A stretch of DNA of 64,000 bases from positions 238,664 to 302,663 of the forward strand of contig JABXIS010000011.1 of assembly GCA_013372975.1 (NCBI GenBank), written 5' to 3'. The stretch is from Alphaproteobacteria bacterium (GTDB lineage: Bacteria > Pseudomonadota > Alphaproteobacteria > Sphingomonadales > Kordiimonadaceae). Made by a program: the position numbers and the translations under genes. Position 1 is the stretch's first letter. Every line of letters begins with the position of its first letter. A model generated the notes under the pieces. The model was not told the DNA's origin. It searched no databases and worked only from the letters and a program-made list of their open reading frames with translations. This document shows, piece by piece, positions 31,294 to 39,120 of this stretch.

Positions 31294-32157
31294 TCAATCC
31301 AGTTTCAGCCAATAGTGCTCCGGTATCTTCTTCATGGCTAAACTCAGGTCCGCGACAGGAAGTTCAATGACCTTTCGGCTTTTGAGTCCCAGTTGATCTG
31401 TGTTCTCAAGGCGATCCAACAGTGACTGAAAGTGTCTGTCGAGGGCGCCGCTTCGGTATGCATTTGTAAAGCCGGTTTGCAGAATGATCTGCCTTCTCGT
31501 ATCGGCTTTCCTGAGATACAGGAAATAGTCGAAGGGATAGACAAGCAGAAGCGATTGTTCTGGCACCAGATCATGATCTGAGAACTGGTCTCTGGCGAAT
31601 TGTATTTCAGTAGCAATCTCATGGACCGCCCGTGGAAAAGCCTCTACCCGGTTATTGGCAAGCATGCTCCAGAGGTTTTCTGTTTCCGCCGTATGAACTT
31701 TAAATCCTGCAGCTTGCAAAATTCGTGTATCGGTCCACGCGTTTGCCGAGGTAACGGATATTTTCCCAGAGAGCTGACGCAGGGTGTCCAGCCCTGTAAA
31801 CAAGGGCTGATTTTCACGTTTTATTGCAAAGACGCGCATGCCCAGCAAGCCGCGGGTCAATGGTACATAGAGTTGCCTGAAGCGTTTTTCCTTATCAGGA
31901 TCATATCCAGCAATGAACATATCAAAGTCTGTGGCGCCGGTTTCCAGATCCCGGATTGCACGCAGTGTTGGGGTATCAAAAACCACTTTTTCAAGTGTGT
32001 GGTCACCGCGCGCATGTTCGAGCGCAATTTTGATTACAGCAATTTGTGGGCCGAAATAGTCGAGGTCATCAGACGGTATTCCCAGCTTGAAATGTTCTGC
32101 ACGGGCAGCTGAACAAACGACACACAAAATATAAATCAGGGTCAGGCGAAAGAGCAT
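31294..32157 (-). CDS. Orphan solute-binding-like protein, third of the array
   Basis: A 287-residue secreted protein (signal MLFRLTLIYILCVVCSAARA). It has a periplasmic-binding-like fold: HFKLGIPSDDLDYFGPQIAVIKIALEHA at the start, FDMFIAGYDPDKEKRFRQL, then the array hallmark YVPLTRGLLGMRVFAI, and RQLSGKISVTSANAWTDT at the start of the second lobe. It is homologous to the next two genes. No transporter genes are near. It is last in transcription order, with an 82-base gap to its upstream neighbour. Confidence 0.7.
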   Translation of the reverse strand: MLFRLTLIYILCVVCSAARAEHFKLGIPSDDLDYFGPQIAVIKIALEHARGDHTLEKVVFDTPTLRAIRDLETGATDFDMFIAGYDPDKEKRFRQLYVPLTRGLLGMRVFAIKRENQPLFTGLDTLRQLSGKISVTSANAWTDTRILQAAGFKVHTAETENLWSMLANNRVEAFPRAVHEIATEIQFARDQFSDHDLVPEQSLLLVYPFDYFLYLRKADTRRQIILQTGFTNAYRSGALDRHFQSLLDRLENTDQLGLKSRKVIELPVADLSLAMKKIPEHYWLKLD

Positions 32158-32239
32158 GAATATTCCATAAAACCAGTTGGCAGAAGAATATGGTGTGATG
32201 ACCTTTGCTGTCCAGTCCGGGGCAGCGTTTTATCCTTGT

Positions 32240-33124
32240 TTACTCAGTCTCTGAGCCAAATTGATGCCAATATTTTGCGGGAATGGCCCTGAATCTGTCG
32301 CTAATAAACGGGTTGTCCATGTGGATTTCCTGTCGCGTGCCAGCCTCGATCAAGGCTAGCCCTTCCCTTATGGGGGGGAAATTCTGAAAGTGCGTCATGA
32401 ATGCGCCTGACGCATAAGCTTTTTTCAGCCCTTCCTCGATAATGGCTGCACGGCGGTCGTCGCCCTTTGCCACATAGAAGAAGCTGTCGTAGGCATAGCT
32501 CACCCGAATATGGTTTGAGATGACGAGGGAAGCACCGTCCCGAATTCCACCATATTTTTCAAGGATAAGGGCACTTTCATCTGCGCCGAATAACAGAGCG
32601 TCATATCGCCCGCGTGCGAGCAGGTCCCATAAGGCCTCGCCGCCGGGTGCCGCCACAACAGTGAAGTTTGCCGCTTCATAGATTGAGCGTTCTGGATGAG
32701 AGATGGGCATGCCAAGCGTGATGGCTTTTGTGAGGCCTGCAAGTGAATGAATGGCCTTGAGTTGAGTGTCTGTTGCGCGCCGAATGAAGAGCAACCTGTG
32801 TCCGAGAAGGCCGCGTGTCAGCGGTATATAGATCATGCGCAGCTCATTCTCGCGTGCCGGGCTGTAGCCACTGAAGATCACGTCGTAGGGGCTGTTGCCA
32901 TCTACAAATTGCCTCAGTTTCCTGCCCTGGTTGGATGGTAGGCCCCGATAATCTTCCACCAGAACAAGCTCATGATCGCCTGCATGTTCGAGCGCGATGC
33001 GGAGCAGTTTGATTTCATAATCGGAGTGGTTGAGGTTTCTGTCGGGCGCAGGTGCCCTGAAGGTTTCCGCCGATACCGGCGAAAGGCATAAAAGGAGCCA
33101 GAATAGGGAAAGTAAGATGCGCAT
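32240..33124 (-). CDS. Orphan solute-binding-like protein, second of the array
   Basis: A 294-residue secreted protein (signal MRILLSLFWLLLCLSPVSA). It shares with its neighbours the IKLLRIALEHAGDHELVLVED opening, the FSGYSPARENELRMIYIPL segment and TRGLLGHRLLFIRR. GGAGG before ATG 33124 fixes the start. The 3' half keeps a YDSFFYVAKGDDRRAAIIEEGL helix shared by all three. The ligand is unknown. Confidence 0.7.
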   Translation of the reverse strand: MRILLSLFWLLLCLSPVSAETFRAPAPDRNLNHSDYEIKLLRIALEHAGDHELVLVEDYRGLPSNQGRKLRQFVDGNSPYDVIFSGYSPARENELRMIYIPLTRGLLGHRLLFIRRATDTQLKAIHSLAGLTKAITLGMPISHPERSIYEAANFTVVAAPGGEALWDLLARGRYDALLFGADESALILEKYGGIRDGASLVISNHIRVSYAYDSFFYVAKGDDRRAAIIEEGLKKAYASGAFMTHFQNFPPIREGLALIEAGTRQEIHMDNPFISDRFRAIPAKYWHQFGSETE

Positions 33125-33172
33125 CCCAACCTCCAATGGAGACTATAGCGATGAAAAGGTTAAGAATTCGCG

Positions 33173-34054
33173 CTAGTGCGGATCACTGAAGGGTGCCCAA
33201 TATTCGTCCGGCAGGGTCTTGAGGCTTTCGCTAAGAAGGGGCATGTCGAGATATATGATCCTGCGAGGGTACTTCTGCAGCTCTTTGCGTATCTCCCGCA
33301 GCTGAGGGACATTGGCCAAAAGGGTGTGTAACTTTCCACTTTCAAATGCCCTGATCAGGCCTTGTTCAATGATGGCCGCTTTGGCCTTGTCAGATTTGGC
33401 AAGATAGAAGAAATGATCAAACTTGTAGACCAGCATGATATGGCGGTCGATCATGATTCCTTCTTCCGGCCATTCGGCTCTGGCGCCTTCTACCTGGCGG
33501 ATAACTTCATTGGCGCCTCTGGGAAAAGCATTGAAGCGTCCTCGTGCCAGCATTTGCCACAGGTTAGGGTCTGTCGCTGTGGCGACATTCAGTCCGGCTG
33601 CCTTGAGAATAGTGGTGTCTGGCCAGTCAATGCCCGAGCCGAGCACTGCAATTTTCCTGAGGTCTTCAAGAGAATTTGTATTGGCAAACAACTTGCTGTT
33701 TGCCTCTCTAACGGCCAGCAGGCGATGCCCCAGCATGCCAAGGGTGATTGGAAAGCGCACCATCGCCAGCTCCTTCTCACGACTGGCATCATAACCGCTG
33801 TAATGAAGGTTATAGCCCGGCTGTTCTTCGGCGAGCGCCCTCAGGGCCCTGTTCTGGGCAAGGATGACTTGGCCAACAGCCTCGACCGTGTGATCGCCGT
33901 CAGCCTCTTCAAGGGCAAGTTTCAAGATATCGACAATATATGTGTCATCTTTGGTGGCCATGCCCAAACGGAAGTGTTCAGCATGCACGGCGGAAGTGCC
34001 CGCAACGATTGCTGCCATAAGGTATAACCAACTCAGGATTAGATTTGGTCGCAT
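33173..34054 (-). CDS. Orphan solute-binding-like protein, first of the array
   Basis: A 293-residue secreted protein with signal peptide (LILSWLYLMAAIVAGTSAVHA). Shared elements are HFRLGMATKDDTYIVDILKLALEEA, LHYSGYDASREKELAMVRF, PITLGMLGHRLLAVRE and FDHFFYLAKSDKAKAAIIEQGL. It leads the three-gene minus-strand array. A TATAAT box lies 20 bases before the start and AAGGA eight bases before it. Upstream of that promoter is the structured non-coding stretch with its own terminator. Confidence 0.7.
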   Translation of the reverse strand: MRPNLILSWLYLMAAIVAGTSAVHAEHFRLGMATKDDTYIVDILKLALEEADGDHTVEAVGQVILAQNRALRALAEEQPGYNLHYSGYDASREKELAMVRFPITLGMLGHRLLAVREANSKLFANTNSLEDLRKIAVLGSGIDWPDTTILKAAGLNVATATDPNLWQMLARGRFNAFPRGANEVIRQVEGARAEWPEEGIMIDRHIMLVYKFDHFFYLAKSDKAKAAIIEQGLIRAFESGKLHTLLANVPQLREIRKELQKYPRRIIYLDMPLLSESLKTLPDEYWAPFSDPH

Positions 34055-34074: not shown

Positions 34075-34105
34075 ATTATAGGACTACACGCGAAAGCATT
34101 GCCAA
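34075..34105 (-). promoter_or_regulatory. Probable promoter of the binding-protein array
   Basis: On the minus strand a perfect TATAAT (34080-34075) follows TTGGCA (34105-34100) with a 19-base spacer. Initiation would fall near 34068, leaving a leader of about 14 bases that includes AAGGA before the start codon at 34054. The spacer is slightly long. Confidence 0.5.
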
Positions 34106-34111
34106 ATATTT

Positions 34112-34151
34112 ATCAAAAGAAAAAAAGAGGCCCCGGCATTTCGCCGGAGCC
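34112..34151 (-). terminator. Intrinsic terminator on the minus strand upstream of the binding-protein array
   Basis: A stem of nine pairs with one mismatch (34129-34137 with 34143-34151) and a five-base loop, followed on the minus strand by TCTTTTTTTCTTTT. On the plus strand there is no T-tract, so it acts for a minus-strand transcript ending before the array promoter. Confidence 0.75.
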
Positions 34152-34336
34152 TTGAAAACAGTTTGTCAACATAGGGAGGTTAGTGCTGTCTCGAACTCAC
34201 GAGACAAAATAAAAGGGCCGGTCCCGGGGGGGAAGTGGGGGGAGGGGGGAGGAACCCCGGGACCGACCTTTATGACGGAATACCGTCAAAACTTGGTGCC
34301 GCGAGCGAGCTACTCAGTACGTTGCTCAGCGGCGAT
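34115..34336 (-). ncRNA. Candidate structured small RNA with anti-Shine-Dalgarno segments
   Basis: Read on the minus strand this gene-free stretch has, in order: a hairpin GCCGC...GCGGC (34333-34298) with inner GAGC/GCTC; TGACGG-tatt-CCGTCA (34288-34273); a perfect 11-base stem CGGTCCCGGGG/CCCCGGGACCG (34265-34219) whose 25-base loop is almost only C and T; GTCTCG-tgagtt-CGAGAC (34205-34188); a single-stranded CTAACCTCCCTATG; and a terminator stem (34151-34129) followed by TCTTTTTTTCTTTT. A weak TATATA (34348-34343) could start it. The CCTCC-type segments are complementary to ribosome-binding sites. No matching RNA family is recognised, and transcription is inferred. Confidence 0.4.
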
Positions 34337-34489
34337 GGGAGGTATATATGTTGGGGGAAGGAATAAGAAAACCCATTTTTGGGTCGTATCAGCTATGCGT
34401 AAAATGCATATCTTAAAAAAATAAGGCATCCAGTTAACGAATGGCAAAAAGGCTGCAAAAAATAGTGCAGGATTACTGACCAAAAAGCC

Positions 34490-34523: not shown

Positions 34524-36212
34524 ATGAAACTTAGGAAAACTGCAGCACTGGGGCTGTTAACGATTGGTTCGGCATATACAGCTTTTGCCGATGAAAAAAG
34601 TGAAAATCTTAACAAATTTAACGATTTTGATGTGCGTCTTCTTGAAGCAACAGATGCCCGGGATGCCCAAAATCCGGTTTTTGGAGAGGCAATCAAGTCG
34701 GGTAAATGGGCGGCCCTTACATATCTGGGACAGATTGGCGGCGAGGCCTGCGCCAGGATCACTCCTTTTCTGACCCATGAGAATGCTGAGGCCCGTGAAG
34801 CAGCAGCCCTTGGCGTCGCTGCTTGCAATGACGCCTCCCTGGGTCAGGCCCTTGTGGATGCGGAAGAAGAAGACAACTCAGTCTCGCGTTTGATAGCCAT
34901 GGGATTTTCTGGCGGCGACATGGGCCGGCAATATCTTGTTGAGACCGTGAATGCCATTGAGGCGGGCACTGGCGTCGGGCATTGCGCCGTGATGGAGCCG
35001 CGCGAGGTGGCGCTGTTCGCGTTGATGCAGGCCATCGTTTATGACCGGCTCGATCCATCTGCTTTGCCCGATCTGGATGTGGCACACTTGCTGGAACTGA
35101 CGGCTGATCCCTGCGTTGGCTATAAGGCGGCTTACCTGCTTGGGCGGCTGCAGAAGCTGGACCAGATTCTGTCACTCGAAGAAGTGACCCATGCCGTGGA
35201 TACTGCGCCTGCACCGGATGTCAGCCGAGCGCTTGTCAGGGTATTGCGGCAGTTCGGCAATGCCTCATCGCTGACGCTGCAGGCGCTCGCGGGTGGTGAA
35301 AATAACGAGATTGCCATGGAAGCCGTGCGTGCCATGGGCAGCCTGAGCGATGAAGGCAGCAAGAATTATCTGATTGCCTTGGTTGCAGGTGAAGACACCT
35401 TCATGCGCCATCTGGCCTTGGCAGCATTGGCCGGGCGGGACGCCATGGATGCGGGGGTTAGCCAGTTGATTGCGGCCAGTGTAGAGGACCCCAACCCTTG
35501 GGTGGCCGTGACGGCCCTTCAATCCCTGAATGTTCGAACGCCAGAAGAAGTGTTGCCTGTTGCTCGCCGTTGGTTTGAAGGCGATGACTATTACAAAGCA
35601 TTTTCGGCAATGAGCCTGCTCAGCCAATCAGACGAAGGCAAAGCTATTTTGGAGGCCTACGCCGGAGCGAACCCGAATACGATCCGTGGGCGGGAAGCAG
35701 CCATTGCGCTTGATCCTTCTATTGAGGGCATCGAAAAACCCCGCAAAACGCCAGGCTGGAATATGGTGCGGTCTTATCAGGAACGGGAGTTGAAACTGCA
35801 AACAACGCGTGGCGATGTGTGCATCAAGCCTTCGTCTCTGGCGCCGTACGCAGCGGCCAACTTCATGCTTTTGGCCGATGTGGGCAAGATGAACGGCATG
35901 TTATGGCACAGGGTGATCCCGAATTTTGTGGCGCAAGCTGGCCAAAGCGAGGACCCAGAGCTTGCAAGCTGGGGCACTATCCGCGAGGAGTGGTGGGGCA
36001 GCATCCATGTGCCGGGCACCGTGGGCGTGGCGACAGCCGGGCGCGATACCGGCAGCACCCAGTTTTTCATCAACACCGCCTATAATATGCACCTCAACGG
36101 CCGCTATACCGTGATGGGGCATGTGACTGAAGGTATGGATGTGGCCCACAAACTTCAGGAAGGTGATGTGATCGAGAAGGCGGAAACCGTTCGCGCGGGT
36201 ATGTGCAAATAA
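34524..36212 (+). CDS. Periplasmic HEAT-repeat protein fused to a cyclophilin-type peptidyl-prolyl isomerase
   Basis: A 562-residue protein with a signal peptide (MKLRKTAALGLLTIGSAYTAFA). Residues about 60-400 consist of helical HEAT-like repeats (AREAAALGVAACNDASLGQAL; AMEAVRAMGSLSDEGSKNYL; RHLALAALAGRDAMD; VAVTALQSLNVRTPEEVL). Residues about 415-560 are a cyclophilin domain: LKLQTTRGDVCIKP, WHRVIPNFVAQAGQ with the catalytic Arg, GVATAGRDTGSTQFFINTA and GRYTVMGHVTEGMDV. The repeats probably grip substrate proteins for the isomerase. GGGGAGG precedes the ATG. The domain combination is uncommon. Confidence 0.88.
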   Translation: MKLRKTAALGLLTIGSAYTAFADEKSENLNKFNDFDVRLLEATDARDAQNPVFGEAIKSGKWAALTYLGQIGGEACARITPFLTHENAEAREAAALGVAACNDASLGQALVDAEEEDNSVSRLIAMGFSGGDMGRQYLVETVNAIEAGTGVGHCAVMEPREVALFALMQAIVYDRLDPSALPDLDVAHLLELTADPCVGYKAAYLLGRLQKLDQILSLEEVTHAVDTAPAPDVSRALVRVLRQFGNASSLTLQALAGGENNEIAMEAVRAMGSLSDEGSKNYLIALVAGEDTFMRHLALAALAGRDAMDAGVSQLIAASVEDPNPWVAVTALQSLNVRTPEEVLPVARRWFEGDDYYKAFSAMSLLSQSDEGKAILEAYAGANPNTIRGREAAIALDPSIEGIEKPRKTPGWNMVRSYQERELKLQTTRGDVCIKPSSLAPYAAANFMLLADVGKMNGMLWHRVIPNFVAQAGQSEDPELASWGTIREEWWGSIHVPGTVGVATAGRDTGSTQFFINTAYNMHLNGRYTVMGHVTEGMDVAHKLQEGDVIEKAETVRAGMCK

Positions 36213-36215
36213 CCC

Positions 36216-37112
36216 CTAGAGGATATTGCTTTCGGCCCTGATCTGGCGAACCATGAAATCCCGGAACAGGGCCACCCGCAGGCTGCCCCGAAGCTCGGGC
36301 GCATAACAATAATAGCTATTGAATGGTGTGCCTTCCACCTTCGGCAGCACGCGTACCAGCTTCTGCCTGTTATGGACCAGATAATCAGGCAGTACAGCGA
36401 TTCCCATGCCTTTTTCCACGGCGTGCAGAACCCCGTAAAGGTTGTTGATTTGCAGCCTTGGTGTCCGTTCCTTAGATGGGTTGCCCACAGTCAGAAGCCA
36501 GTTCAGTCCCCTGATCGTTGGCACGTTCGATATGCCGAAAGTGATCAGGTCATGCTGGTCTAGATCGGATGGCGTTACGGGTGTGCCCATGCGGTCGAGA
36601 TATTCGGGGCTCGCGTAAATATGCGAGTGAAAGGTGGCAAGCGGGCGTTGGATCAGGTCTGCCTGCTCGGGTTCGTGAAGCCGGATCGCCACGTCGGCTT
36701 CGCCCGCGGAAAGGTCAAGGTCGGCATCATCCAAAATCAGTTTGATATCAATATCCGGATATTCGGTCATGAACTGTTCAAGATGGGGGGTCAGCCACAC
36801 GGCCCCGAAGGTTACCATCGTGGTCACCCGCAACAGGCCAGACGGGCGCTCGCGGCTTTCCATCAGGGTGCGCTGGGTTTCCTCAAGCCGGTGCACCATC
36901 TCGCGGGCGGTATTATAAAGCTCCTGGCCTTCCTGGGTTAACACCAGCCCACGGGCGTGGCGGGTGAACAGGGAAACATTCAGGCTTTCCTCAAGGGCCC
37001 TGATCTGACGGCTGACAGCTGACTGGCTGCAGTTCAGACGAACACCGGCGTTGGTAAAGCTGCCACTTTCCGCAACGGTATGAAAAATCCTAAGTCTGTC
37101 CCAATCCAGCAC
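36216..37112 (-). CDS. LysR-family transcriptional regulator
   Basis: A 298-residue regulator with an N-terminal winged helix (DRLRIFHTVAESGSFTNAG, then NCSQSAVSRQIRALEESLNV) and a two-lobe effector domain (LLRVTTMVTFGAVWLTPHL onwards). It converges on the HEAT-cyclophilin gene with a three-base gap. LysR genes next to trxB are common in alphaproteobacteria; here a two-gene plus-strand unit (37267-38088) separates them. Its effector is unknown. Confidence 0.93.
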   Translation of the reverse strand: MLDWDRLRIFHTVAESGSFTNAGVRLNCSQSAVSRQIRALEESLNVSLFTRHARGLVLTQEGQELYNTAREMVHRLEETQRTLMESRERPSGLLRVTTMVTFGAVWLTPHLEQFMTEYPDIDIKLILDDADLDLSAGEADVAIRLHEPEQADLIQRPLATFHSHIYASPEYLDRMGTPVTPSDLDQHDLITFGISNVPTIRGLNWLLTVGNPSKERTPRLQINNLYGVLHAVEKGMGIAVLPDYLVHNRQKLVRVLPKVEGTPFNSYYCYAPELRGSLRVALFRDFMVRQIRAESNIL

Positions 37113-37266: not shown

Positions 37267-37569
37267 GTGAGCAACAAAGCAATCCTTGAACAGGCAACGG
37301 TCATTTTCAAGCGGGACTATCCGGGCCTGAGCGCCGAGGCAATCATATGCTTTCTTGTTACAATGGACCTGGGCCAGCCGACCGTTGGGGATGTTGCCCG
37401 CGCCGTGGGCATGACCGAACCAACCGCCTATCAGCATTTGTCATTACTGACCGGATCGGGCGCAGGCCTGATTGTTCTGATAAACACAGGTGACGGGCGC
37501 AACCAGATACAGCTCACAGACAAGGGCCAAGCAGTGGCCGCAGCTGTCAATCAGGCGCTGGCGGGATAG
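37267..37569 (+). CDS. Small MarR-like winged-helix protein
   Basis: A 100-residue protein containing only a winged-helix domain: YPGLSAEAIICFLVTMDLGQ, the recognition region TVGDVARAVGMTEPTAYQHLSLL, and a wing INTGDGRNQIQLTDKGQ. Starts with GTG 37267 after AGGTGGGGT. Full MarR proteins have about 140 residues with dimerisation helices at both ends; those are short here. It is followed after three bases by a HEAT-like gene, so the two form an operon. The target is unknown. Confidence 0.75.
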   Translation: MSNKAILEQATVIFKRDYPGLSAEAIICFLVTMDLGQPTVGDVARAVGMTEPTAYQHLSLLTGSGAGLIVLINTGDGRNQIQLTDKGQAVAAAVNQALAG

Positions 37570-38154: not shown

Positions 38155-39120
38155 TTATTCAGCTGCTTTCGCGGCGTGCTCCATGTGGGCGATAAACTTT
38201 TCCGCTTCAAGTGCGGCCATGCAGCCCATGCCAGCAGCCGTTACAGCCTGGCGGTATACTTTGTCTGTTACGTCGCCAGCGGCATATACGCCCGGAATGT
38301 CCGTTTCGGTGCTGTCTGATTTTTTGATCAGATAGCCTTCATCGTCCATTGGCAGTTGGCCTGTGAACAGCTCGGTCGATGGCTTGTGGCCAATGGCGAT
38401 GAACACGCCGTGCACATCCAGCTCGCGGGTGTCGCCCGTTTTCACATTCTTCAGCCGAACCCCGGTTACGCCCAGCGGGTCAGTGTCACCCAATACTTCA
38501 TCAAGCACGCTGTCCCACGCTACTTCCACATTATCGGTGGAGAACAGGCGGTCCTGCAGGATTTTCTCTGAGCGCAGTTCGTCGCGGCGGTGTACCAGCG
38601 TTACCTTCTCGCAGATGTTTGCAAGATATAGCGCTTCTTCGACTGCGGTGTTACCGCCACCGATTACCACAACTTCCTTGCCGCGGTAGAAAAAACCGTC
38701 ACAGGTTGCACAGGCAGACACGCCATAACCGTTGAATTTCTGTTCGCTTTCAAGGCCCAGCCATTTGGCTTGCGCCCCCGTTGCGATCACAACGGTATCG
38801 GCAGTATAGATAGTGCCACTGTCGCCCACAGCCCGTTTTGGTGTGGCCTTCAGGTCCACTTCGCTGATGTAATCATAGATGATTTCAGTGCCAACATTCT
38901 CGGCCTGCTGGCGCATGGCTTCCATCAACTCAGGGCCCTGAACCGCGTCGGCGAAACCTGGATAGTTTTCCACGTCTGTTGTGATCGTCAGCTGGCCGCC
39001 AGCCTGCATGCCGGTCACGATGGTTGGGCTGAGGTTGGCGCGCGCGGCATAAATCGCAGCGGTATAACCCGCCGGGCCGGAGCCAATGATCAGCATTTTG
39101 GTGTGTTTGGTGTCAGCCAT
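38155..39120 (-). CDS. trxB: Thioredoxin-disulfide reductase
   Basis: A 321-residue NADPH flavoenzyme that keeps thioredoxin reduced. FAD motif GSGPAYTAAIYAARA at the N-terminus, the redox-active CATC in VSACATCDGFFYRG (about residues 136-139), NADPH motif GGGNTAVEEALYL, and the FAD-closing GVYAAGDVTDKVYRQ. It supports the nearby peroxide and methionine sulfoxide defence genes in a general way. Confidence 0.98.
   Translation of the reverse strand: MADTKHTKMLIIGSGPAGYTAAIYAARANLSPTIVTGMQAGGQLTITTDVENYPGFADAVQGPELMEAMRQQAENVGTEIIYDYISEVDLKATPKRAVGDSGTIYTADTVVIATGAQAKWLGLESEQKFNGYGVSACATCDGFFYRGKEVVVIGGGNTAVEEALYLANICEKVTLVHRRDELRSEKILQDRLFSTDNVEVAWDSVLDEVLGDTDPLGVTGVRLKNVKTGDTRELDVHGVFIAIGHKPSTELFTGQLPMDDEGYLIKKSDSTETDIPGVYAAGDVTDKVYRQAVTAAGMGCMAALEAEKFIAHMEHAAKAAE

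Follow-up and report, generated by a model that had tools for sequence, protein, structure and literature searches.

An AbcR-like candidate small RNA with its own architecture at an LsrB-type locus of Kordiimonadaceae

Does the stretch of DNA between three binding-protein-like genes and a HEAT-repeat/cyclophilin gene of a Kordiimonadaceae bacterium hold a regulatory RNA of its own, and if so, what would control it and what would it act upon? We analysed it within a window of 64,000 nucleotides (contig JABXIS010000011.1, positions 238,664 to 302,663). A sequence-only reading had taken it for an independent RNA with C-rich loops complementary to Shine-Dalgarno (SD) sites, which may control the three adjacent binding proteins or others. 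We consider it probable that the locus encodes a small RNA of about 216 nt that is switched on by a nearby LsrB/VtlR-type LysR regulator and acts in trans, through C-rich segments, on the ribosome-binding sites of many mRNAs.

The predicted RNA covers positions 34120..34335 of the minus strand, as judged from its fold, its homologues and covariation. Its start was set by the box-to-RNA distance at two loci with a recognised ar15 RNA (L165, L166): there ar15 begins, by arithmetic, 78 nt past the start of the promoter box, and an equal distance in the window leads to 34335. The end is a T-run. The minus strand of 34118-34340 folds with a minimum free energy of -89.9 kcal/mol, whereas 200 dinucleotide shuffles give -61.7 ± 4.3 (z -6.58; equally low shuffles 0/200), and the four hairpins noticed earlier are all present. 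Hairpin 1 (34298..34333), placed by the fold, is variable in sequence and uneven in fold strength across relatives (z -0.3 to -4.2, with the L020 segment left out). Hairpin 2 (34273..34288) pairs UGACGG with CCGUCA. The main hairpin (34216..34268), backed by fold and covariation, had been described as perfect 11-base arms around a 25-base loop of C and T only: the arms are there but extend to a stem of 14 pairs (34255-34268 / 34216-34229), one of them G-U, and the loop is not purely C/T. This 25-nt loop (34230..34254, UUCCUCCCCCCUCCCCCCACUUCCC), the first anti-SD segment, has 24 pyrimidines and a single A at 34236. Hairpin 4 (34187..34208, placed by the fold) precedes the second anti-SD segment, ACCUCCC at 34174..34180, which is unpaired in the centroid structure, just where an unpaired CCTCC had been seen between hairpin four and the terminator. 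All these parts lie on the minus strand.

The intrinsic terminator (34120..34152, minus strand) was likewise read correctly, with a stem at 34128-34152 and a T-run to 34120. A terminator scan returned it with 11 pairs at 34152-34128, the region total being 3 sites vs 2.9 expected from shuffles. Since scan sites are equally frequent in shuffles, the terminator is better backed by its T-run, which recurs in 21 of 22 loci (all but L010). No conserved open reading frame lies inside the RNA: frames and lengths (4-49 codons) differ between loci.

In a DNA search across 59 related genomes the element turned up in the same genus and family, and the order of its parts is identical across the 22 loci read. 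A covariance model built from 17 loci (R1) and searched against 396 genomes of the order matches 27 of them: 26 of the 29 genomes of the family, with one match each, and one chance-like match. The latter (G115, L087, E 2.8e-4), the sole match outside the family, is without the C-rich loop and was dropped. Together with G004, in which the RNA is cut at a contig end, homologues occur in 27/29 family genomes; G009 (83% complete) and G022 gave no RNA match.

Alignments A1-A3 were made without L010, where the terminator was not found, and A3 also without L004, L005, L019 and L020, whose longer hairpin 2 was mis-aligned, so that the covariation counts cover 17 of the 22 loci. In these 17 aligned cores (16 distinct), 98.7% of cells pair and two-sided compensatory changes are found in 11/19 pairs; 0/500 shuffles reach any of five measures, and every slid version scores lower. 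Two-sided changes affect 9 of 13 modelled pairs in the main hairpin and 2 of 6 in hairpin 2, where 99% of cells are paired. RNAalifold, run on 21 sequences, gives two-sided changes in 13 of 20 pairs. The element is structured, and base changes that compensate one another preserve its stems, the outcome that the covariation check proposed earlier had looked for.

Upstream of the RNA lies a palindrome, GATATGCATTTTACGCATAGC (34392..34412, minus strand), which includes a T-N11-A motif and which the 22-locus comparison leads us to predict as an LsrB/VtlR operator. Its consensus is AGCYATGCRN5YGCATRGCTG, with 11-12 of 12 core positions matched in 22/22 loci. The predicted -10 element, TATATA (34343..34348, minus strand), belongs to a TATA(T/A)N hexamer (TATATA/TATAAC-like across loci) that stands at a fixed distance from the box in all 22 loci, 49-50 bp from the GCAT of the palindrome. 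In Brucella and Agrobacterium the proposed VtlR/LsrB consensus is given as GCAT-N3-TG-N3-T, and abcR1 of S. meliloti is described with this consensus at -61 to -49 (PMC8844928, PMC7486931). The corresponding bases in the window, GCATAGCTGATAC (34386..34398, minus strand), fit it except for the last base, which is C and not T, and lie at about -63 to -51 relative to the predicted start, compared with about -61 to -49 for the AbcR1 box. Across the family loci, the right half of the palindrome with the bases that follow fits the consensus exactly in 5 of 22, and the last base is C or T in 18 of 22. As far as the sequence tells, the Kordiimonas palindrome resembles the published box and sits at the published distance.

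When we searched the genome for the 21-bp pattern with an N7 spacer, the window operator was one of five single-mismatch sites; with 3 mismatches allowed there were 235 matches vs 86 in the control. The box is therefore not unique by sequence, and it is spacing and conservation that carry the case. A genus-wide box search found sites in 18 of 19 genomes, with 0-1 control matches per strand and genome. In three loci (L013, L014, L020) the LsrB-type box is preceded by another palindrome, GACAGCGCTGTC or a variant of this sequence, which is possibly a LacI-family operator.

The candidate activator is an LsrB/VtlR-like LysR-type regulator encoded at 36216..37112 of the minus strand. Its best PDB match is 9HH1 (286 bits, E 2.4e-84; the next PDB sequence scores 114 bits), the LsrB of A. 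tumefaciens (PMC11975290); among the best 25 NCBIfam matches listed for this protein, no LysR model reached its cut-off. Loss of C273 in A. tumefaciens LsrB is reported to have raised peroxide sensitivity (PMC11975290). The aligned cysteine is kept as C269 in the window protein and is invariant in 6 family members. The cysteine aligned with C144 is absent, and the window protein could therefore not make the C144-C273 disulfide that has been proposed.

Further along the minus strand, 38155..39120 encodes thioredoxin reductase TrxB (TIGR01292, 414.5 bits, cut-off 343.45). Published accounts place trxB beside lsrB/vtlR, with abcR1/2 on the other side (PMC7486931, PMC11975290). The window runs trxB, two short ORFs on the opposite strand (one of which matches an HTH model below threshold), the LysR gene, the HEAT-repeat/cyclophilin gene (34524..36212, plus strand) and the RNA, with RNA, LysR gene and trxB in one shared direction. 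The trxB, lsrB/vtlR, RNA order of the rhizobial abcR1 locus is found here with the ORFs and the cyclophilin gene in between.

We scanned named genomes with the LysR alignment and took the best 80 loci of a larger list. Of these, 73 have at least 300 bp downstream, and a box was counted when at least 16 of 19 positions matched within 700 bp. Such a box lies downstream of the LsrB-like gene in 37/73 loci (among the best 80 listed), or 37/70 when Kordiimonas-RNA loci are left out; the reversed sequence gives 0/73. In the other 36 it is absent or weaker within 700 bp, three of these being Kordiimonas-type, with the box further out. The 37 box loci do not include L090-L092, which have the Kordiimonas-type RNA; two of the 37, L106 and L158, are labelled Kordiimonas or Kordiimonadaceae. 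Within 150 nt past the predicted start, separate CCTCC/CTCCC stretches on the RNA strand number at least one in 37/37 loci and at least two in 23/37, compared with 4 and 0 loci on the opposite strand. The mean is 2.05 per locus vs 0.52 in shuffles, 10% of which have at least two. A terminator is present in 34/37 box loci; alignment A5 holds 23 of the 32 modules listed with the box count.

Of 24 loci scanned with Rfam at its cut-offs, only L165 and L166 were recognised as ar15; SorX came up once. The body of the Kordiimonas RNA was not found in the other 77 of the 80 listed loci at E < 0.05. By eye, many outgroup RNAs have a 3' part, GUCUCCCAGACGUGAAGCCUCCCUGUU, that is like the 3' end of the window RNA; a covariance model of this part scored weakly against the family loci (best E 0.058), and we do not claim sequence homology of the 3' ends. 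Separately, two to three tandem RNAs stand behind the LsrB-like gene in L113 (7052-7631), L121 (7049-7660), L149, L106 and L100, with CCTCCCT...terminator ends. The third tandem RNA of L121 is the SorX match (50.4 bits), which links SorX-type RNAs to the LsrB-like locus.

How does the RNA compare with those already described? No Rfam family matches anywhere in the window at its cut-offs, and a permissive search of 34100-34400 gave nine sub-threshold matches, none near a family cut-off. The ar15 model in particular has no match in the window, its own genome or 14 control genomes, though it finds L165 and L166. AbcR/alpha-r15 RNAs are described with three stem-loops and 114-121 nt (length: PMC8844928), the AbcR1 region as syntenic across alphaproteobacteria, and alpha-r15 as occurring in most Rhizobiaceae and Brucellaceae. 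Like AbcR1/alpha-r15 (RF02345), the Kordiimonas RNA stands in the order trxB, lsrB/vtlR, RNA, behind the same palindromic box at the same distance (as seen in L165 and L166), and has two unpaired anti-SD segments and a terminator. Unlike them, it lacks any ar15 match, runs to about 216 nt, and forms four hairpins and a terminator instead of three stem-loops; a 14-pair stem with a 25-nt loop, an extra UGACGG hairpin and, usually, an adjoining cyclophilin gene set it further apart. The likeness to AbcR drawn earlier is thus upheld for the layout (trxB, an LsrB/VtlR-like gene, an LsrB-type box) but not by the family model.

Conserved fold, LsrB-type box, LsrB-like gene with trxB nearby and the class-wide loci with box and anti-SD stretches together point to a predicted RNA that is AbcR-like and LsrB-linked, with an architecture of its own that is unmatched in the Rfam catalogue. 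On the best reading it corresponds to AbcR1, is encoded at the same locus and has a body peculiar to its lineage. We also lean, by a narrow measure, towards a broader proposal: LsrB/VtlR and an anti-SD RNA would form an ancestral, class-wide module whose box, spacing, anti-SD motifs and terminator endure while each lineage builds the RNA body anew, AbcR being only the rhizobial form and the Kordiimonas RNA founding a new family. A literature search for Kordiimonas with small RNA or sRNA gave stray mentions only, among the matches listed, and one for AbcR in Rhodospirillum or Rhodospirillales gave no joint treatment; prior description elsewhere is possible.

Three further RNAs share single traits with the one in the window. 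Cuckoo/CcsR RNAs of Rhodobacter carry anti-SD motifs, CCUCCUCCC, in hairpin loops, as the window RNA does, but come as several tandem copies behind a small ORF, whereas the window has one RNA with no such conserved frame inside. The 3' end of SisA-D is described as a hairpin, a single-stranded CCUCCCU and a terminator, an arrangement that the window RNA has in common with alphaR8/suhB/mmgR/SisA-D (RF00519). It does not match the model of this family, scoring 15.6 bits against a cut-off of 41, and a separate alphaR8/suhB RNA exists in the same genome (G000:C40:108213-108286, L088, 52.2 bits). GsrN of Caulobacter, whose C-rich loop is described as pairing with G-rich mRNA sites, resembles the window RNA in that loop; it differs in being driven by sigma-T and lying near general-stress genes, whereas the window RNA lies behind an LTTR-type box and close to a LysR gene, with no GsrN-type general-stress gene among the neighbour genes named.

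The mechanism that we favour would run as follows. The LsrB/VtlR-type regulator would bind the predicted box and activate the RNA, which would be transcribed as its own unit from the predicted promoter; a redox or nutrient signal may act on this regulator-RNA system. The exposed C-rich segments would then pair in trans with the ribosome-binding sites of many mRNAs, perhaps with the help of Hfq (its gene is present in the genome, 112 bits), and the translation of these mRNAs would be repressed, transport genes among them by analogy with AbcR, whose family traits include the repression, with Hfq, of binding-protein/ABC mRNAs.

We computed duplex energies of the two anti-SD segments with the start regions of 17 window genes. 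With binding proteins 1-3, the C-rich loop gives -14.9, -16.3 and -6.0 kcal/mol; it pairs better with unrelated genes, such as the ORF at 37267 (-24.9 kcal/mol) and the HEAT-cyclophilin gene (-19.7 kcal/mol). The second segment gives -7.6, -16.1 and -3.5 kcal/mol, and up to -14.3 with other genes. There is no general preference for the three neighbouring genes: the pairing foreseen earlier with their 5' regions is borne out for the second one alone, a candidate target since, of the 17, it pairs best with the second segment, and the loop does not single out the array. Extended complements of the loop are not in excess in the genome (21 matches, itself included, vs 23 in the control). By analogy with published AbcR, short, SD-centred pairing would be the likelier use of the segments.

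These same observations, a long pyrimidine loop on a very stable stem and no enrichment of extended complementary targets, would also suit an RNA that titrates a protein, for instance a C-rich-binding protein or Rho, instead of pairing with mRNAs. The second segment is informative here: it reads CCTCCC in 11 of 22 loci and CTCCC or CCTCC in 17, and the other five have TCCCC only, which is not a CCUCC-type SD complement. Those five loci fit titration, while the 17 argue against it, as do the short CCUCC/CUCCC stretches, a pattern of anti-SD RNAs, in the RNAs that occupy this place in other loci, and the reported action of AbcR through anti-SD motifs (PMC8844928). The C-rich anti-SD segments claimed from the start are present, and we judge titration unlikely.

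It is quite unlikely that a real small RNA is here under another transcription factor, the closeness of the LysR gene being a relic of synteny. Most Kordiimonas loci have C at the final position of the published consensus, and in 20 of the 26 family loci compared (3 kb each) the gene next to the RNA is a relative of the cyclophilin gene, not the LysR gene; in the other six the LysR gene lies inside the locus and the cyclophilin relative is absent from it. Against this, the same box and spacing precede an RNA that is Rfam ar15 in L165 and L166, and control of abcR1 by LsrB is published (PMC8844928). Activation by the LsrB/VtlR-type regulator thus stays the preferred reading.

What, then, is the role of the adjacent array (31294-34054)? 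Gene 1 (33173..34054, minus strand) is the first of three binding-protein-like genes and is not an established part of the system; genes 2 and 3 (32240-33136; 31294-32157) are its paralogues, 35-37% identical to it. Pfam has no match for any of the three proteins, and no permease was found among the neighbour genes scanned around the array. The product of gene 1 is predicted to adopt a periplasmic amino-acid-binding-protein-like fold (mean pLDDT 86.4; best Foldseek E 6.8e-11, TM 0.4-0.5). Of the TATAAT promoter assigned to the array, the hexamer is there at 34075-34080, but its best -35, TTGGCA, leaves a spacer of 19 bp, and the hexamer is not among the promoters returned by the scan, which covered spacers of 16-18 bp.

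Relatives of the binding proteins adjoin the RNA in 7 of the 26 family loci (L001, L002, L003, L005, L006, L007 and L009). The next typed downstream gene is convergent (proC or ybjN) in 10, where the RNA can therefore not be a leader; the downstream gene is untyped in the other nine. From these counts it follows that the RNA stands as a unit independent of the array. Control of the adjacent genes as the purpose of the RNA is not supported, since the array adjoins it in so few loci and only the second of the three start regions pairs notably. Its independence is upheld by the compensatory changes, by its own conserved promoter region and by the convergent genes. A cis-acting leader or attenuator, whose hairpins would govern read-through into 34054, is very improbable and was rejected on the synteny of the 26 loci: it fits the window, with the array downstream on the same strand behind the terminator, and the seven loci with binding-protein genes downstream, but not the ten with a convergent gene, and loci without the array contribute to the covariation.

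The bacteria from which AbcR RNAs and their regulator are known, rhizobia, agrobacteria and brucellae, live in association with hosts. Should free-living alphaproteobacteria also use LsrB-like regulators to drive anti-SD RNAs, the module would predate host association and would serve general nutrient or redox control; the box would also offer a way to find such RNAs when sequence models miss them. The two strong Kordiimonas sites, one at the RNA and one at a small orphan protein, would offer a simple test system for this idea.

This second strong LsrB-type box of the genome lies at G000:C54:31151-31176 (L049/L179), with a CTATCTA -10 spaced about as at the RNA. It precedes the gene of an orphan protein of about 108 aa, which has no Pfam or NCBIfam match in the genome of the window and is encoded by 13 of the 30 loci kept from the box search, in 11 genomes (34% identity at locus L186). 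VtlR is reported to drive a small-protein gene in Agrobacterium and Brucella (PMC7486931). A database search with the orphan protein returned 15 matches including the query, and the five named ones are from Kordiimonas or unplaced alphaproteobacteria.
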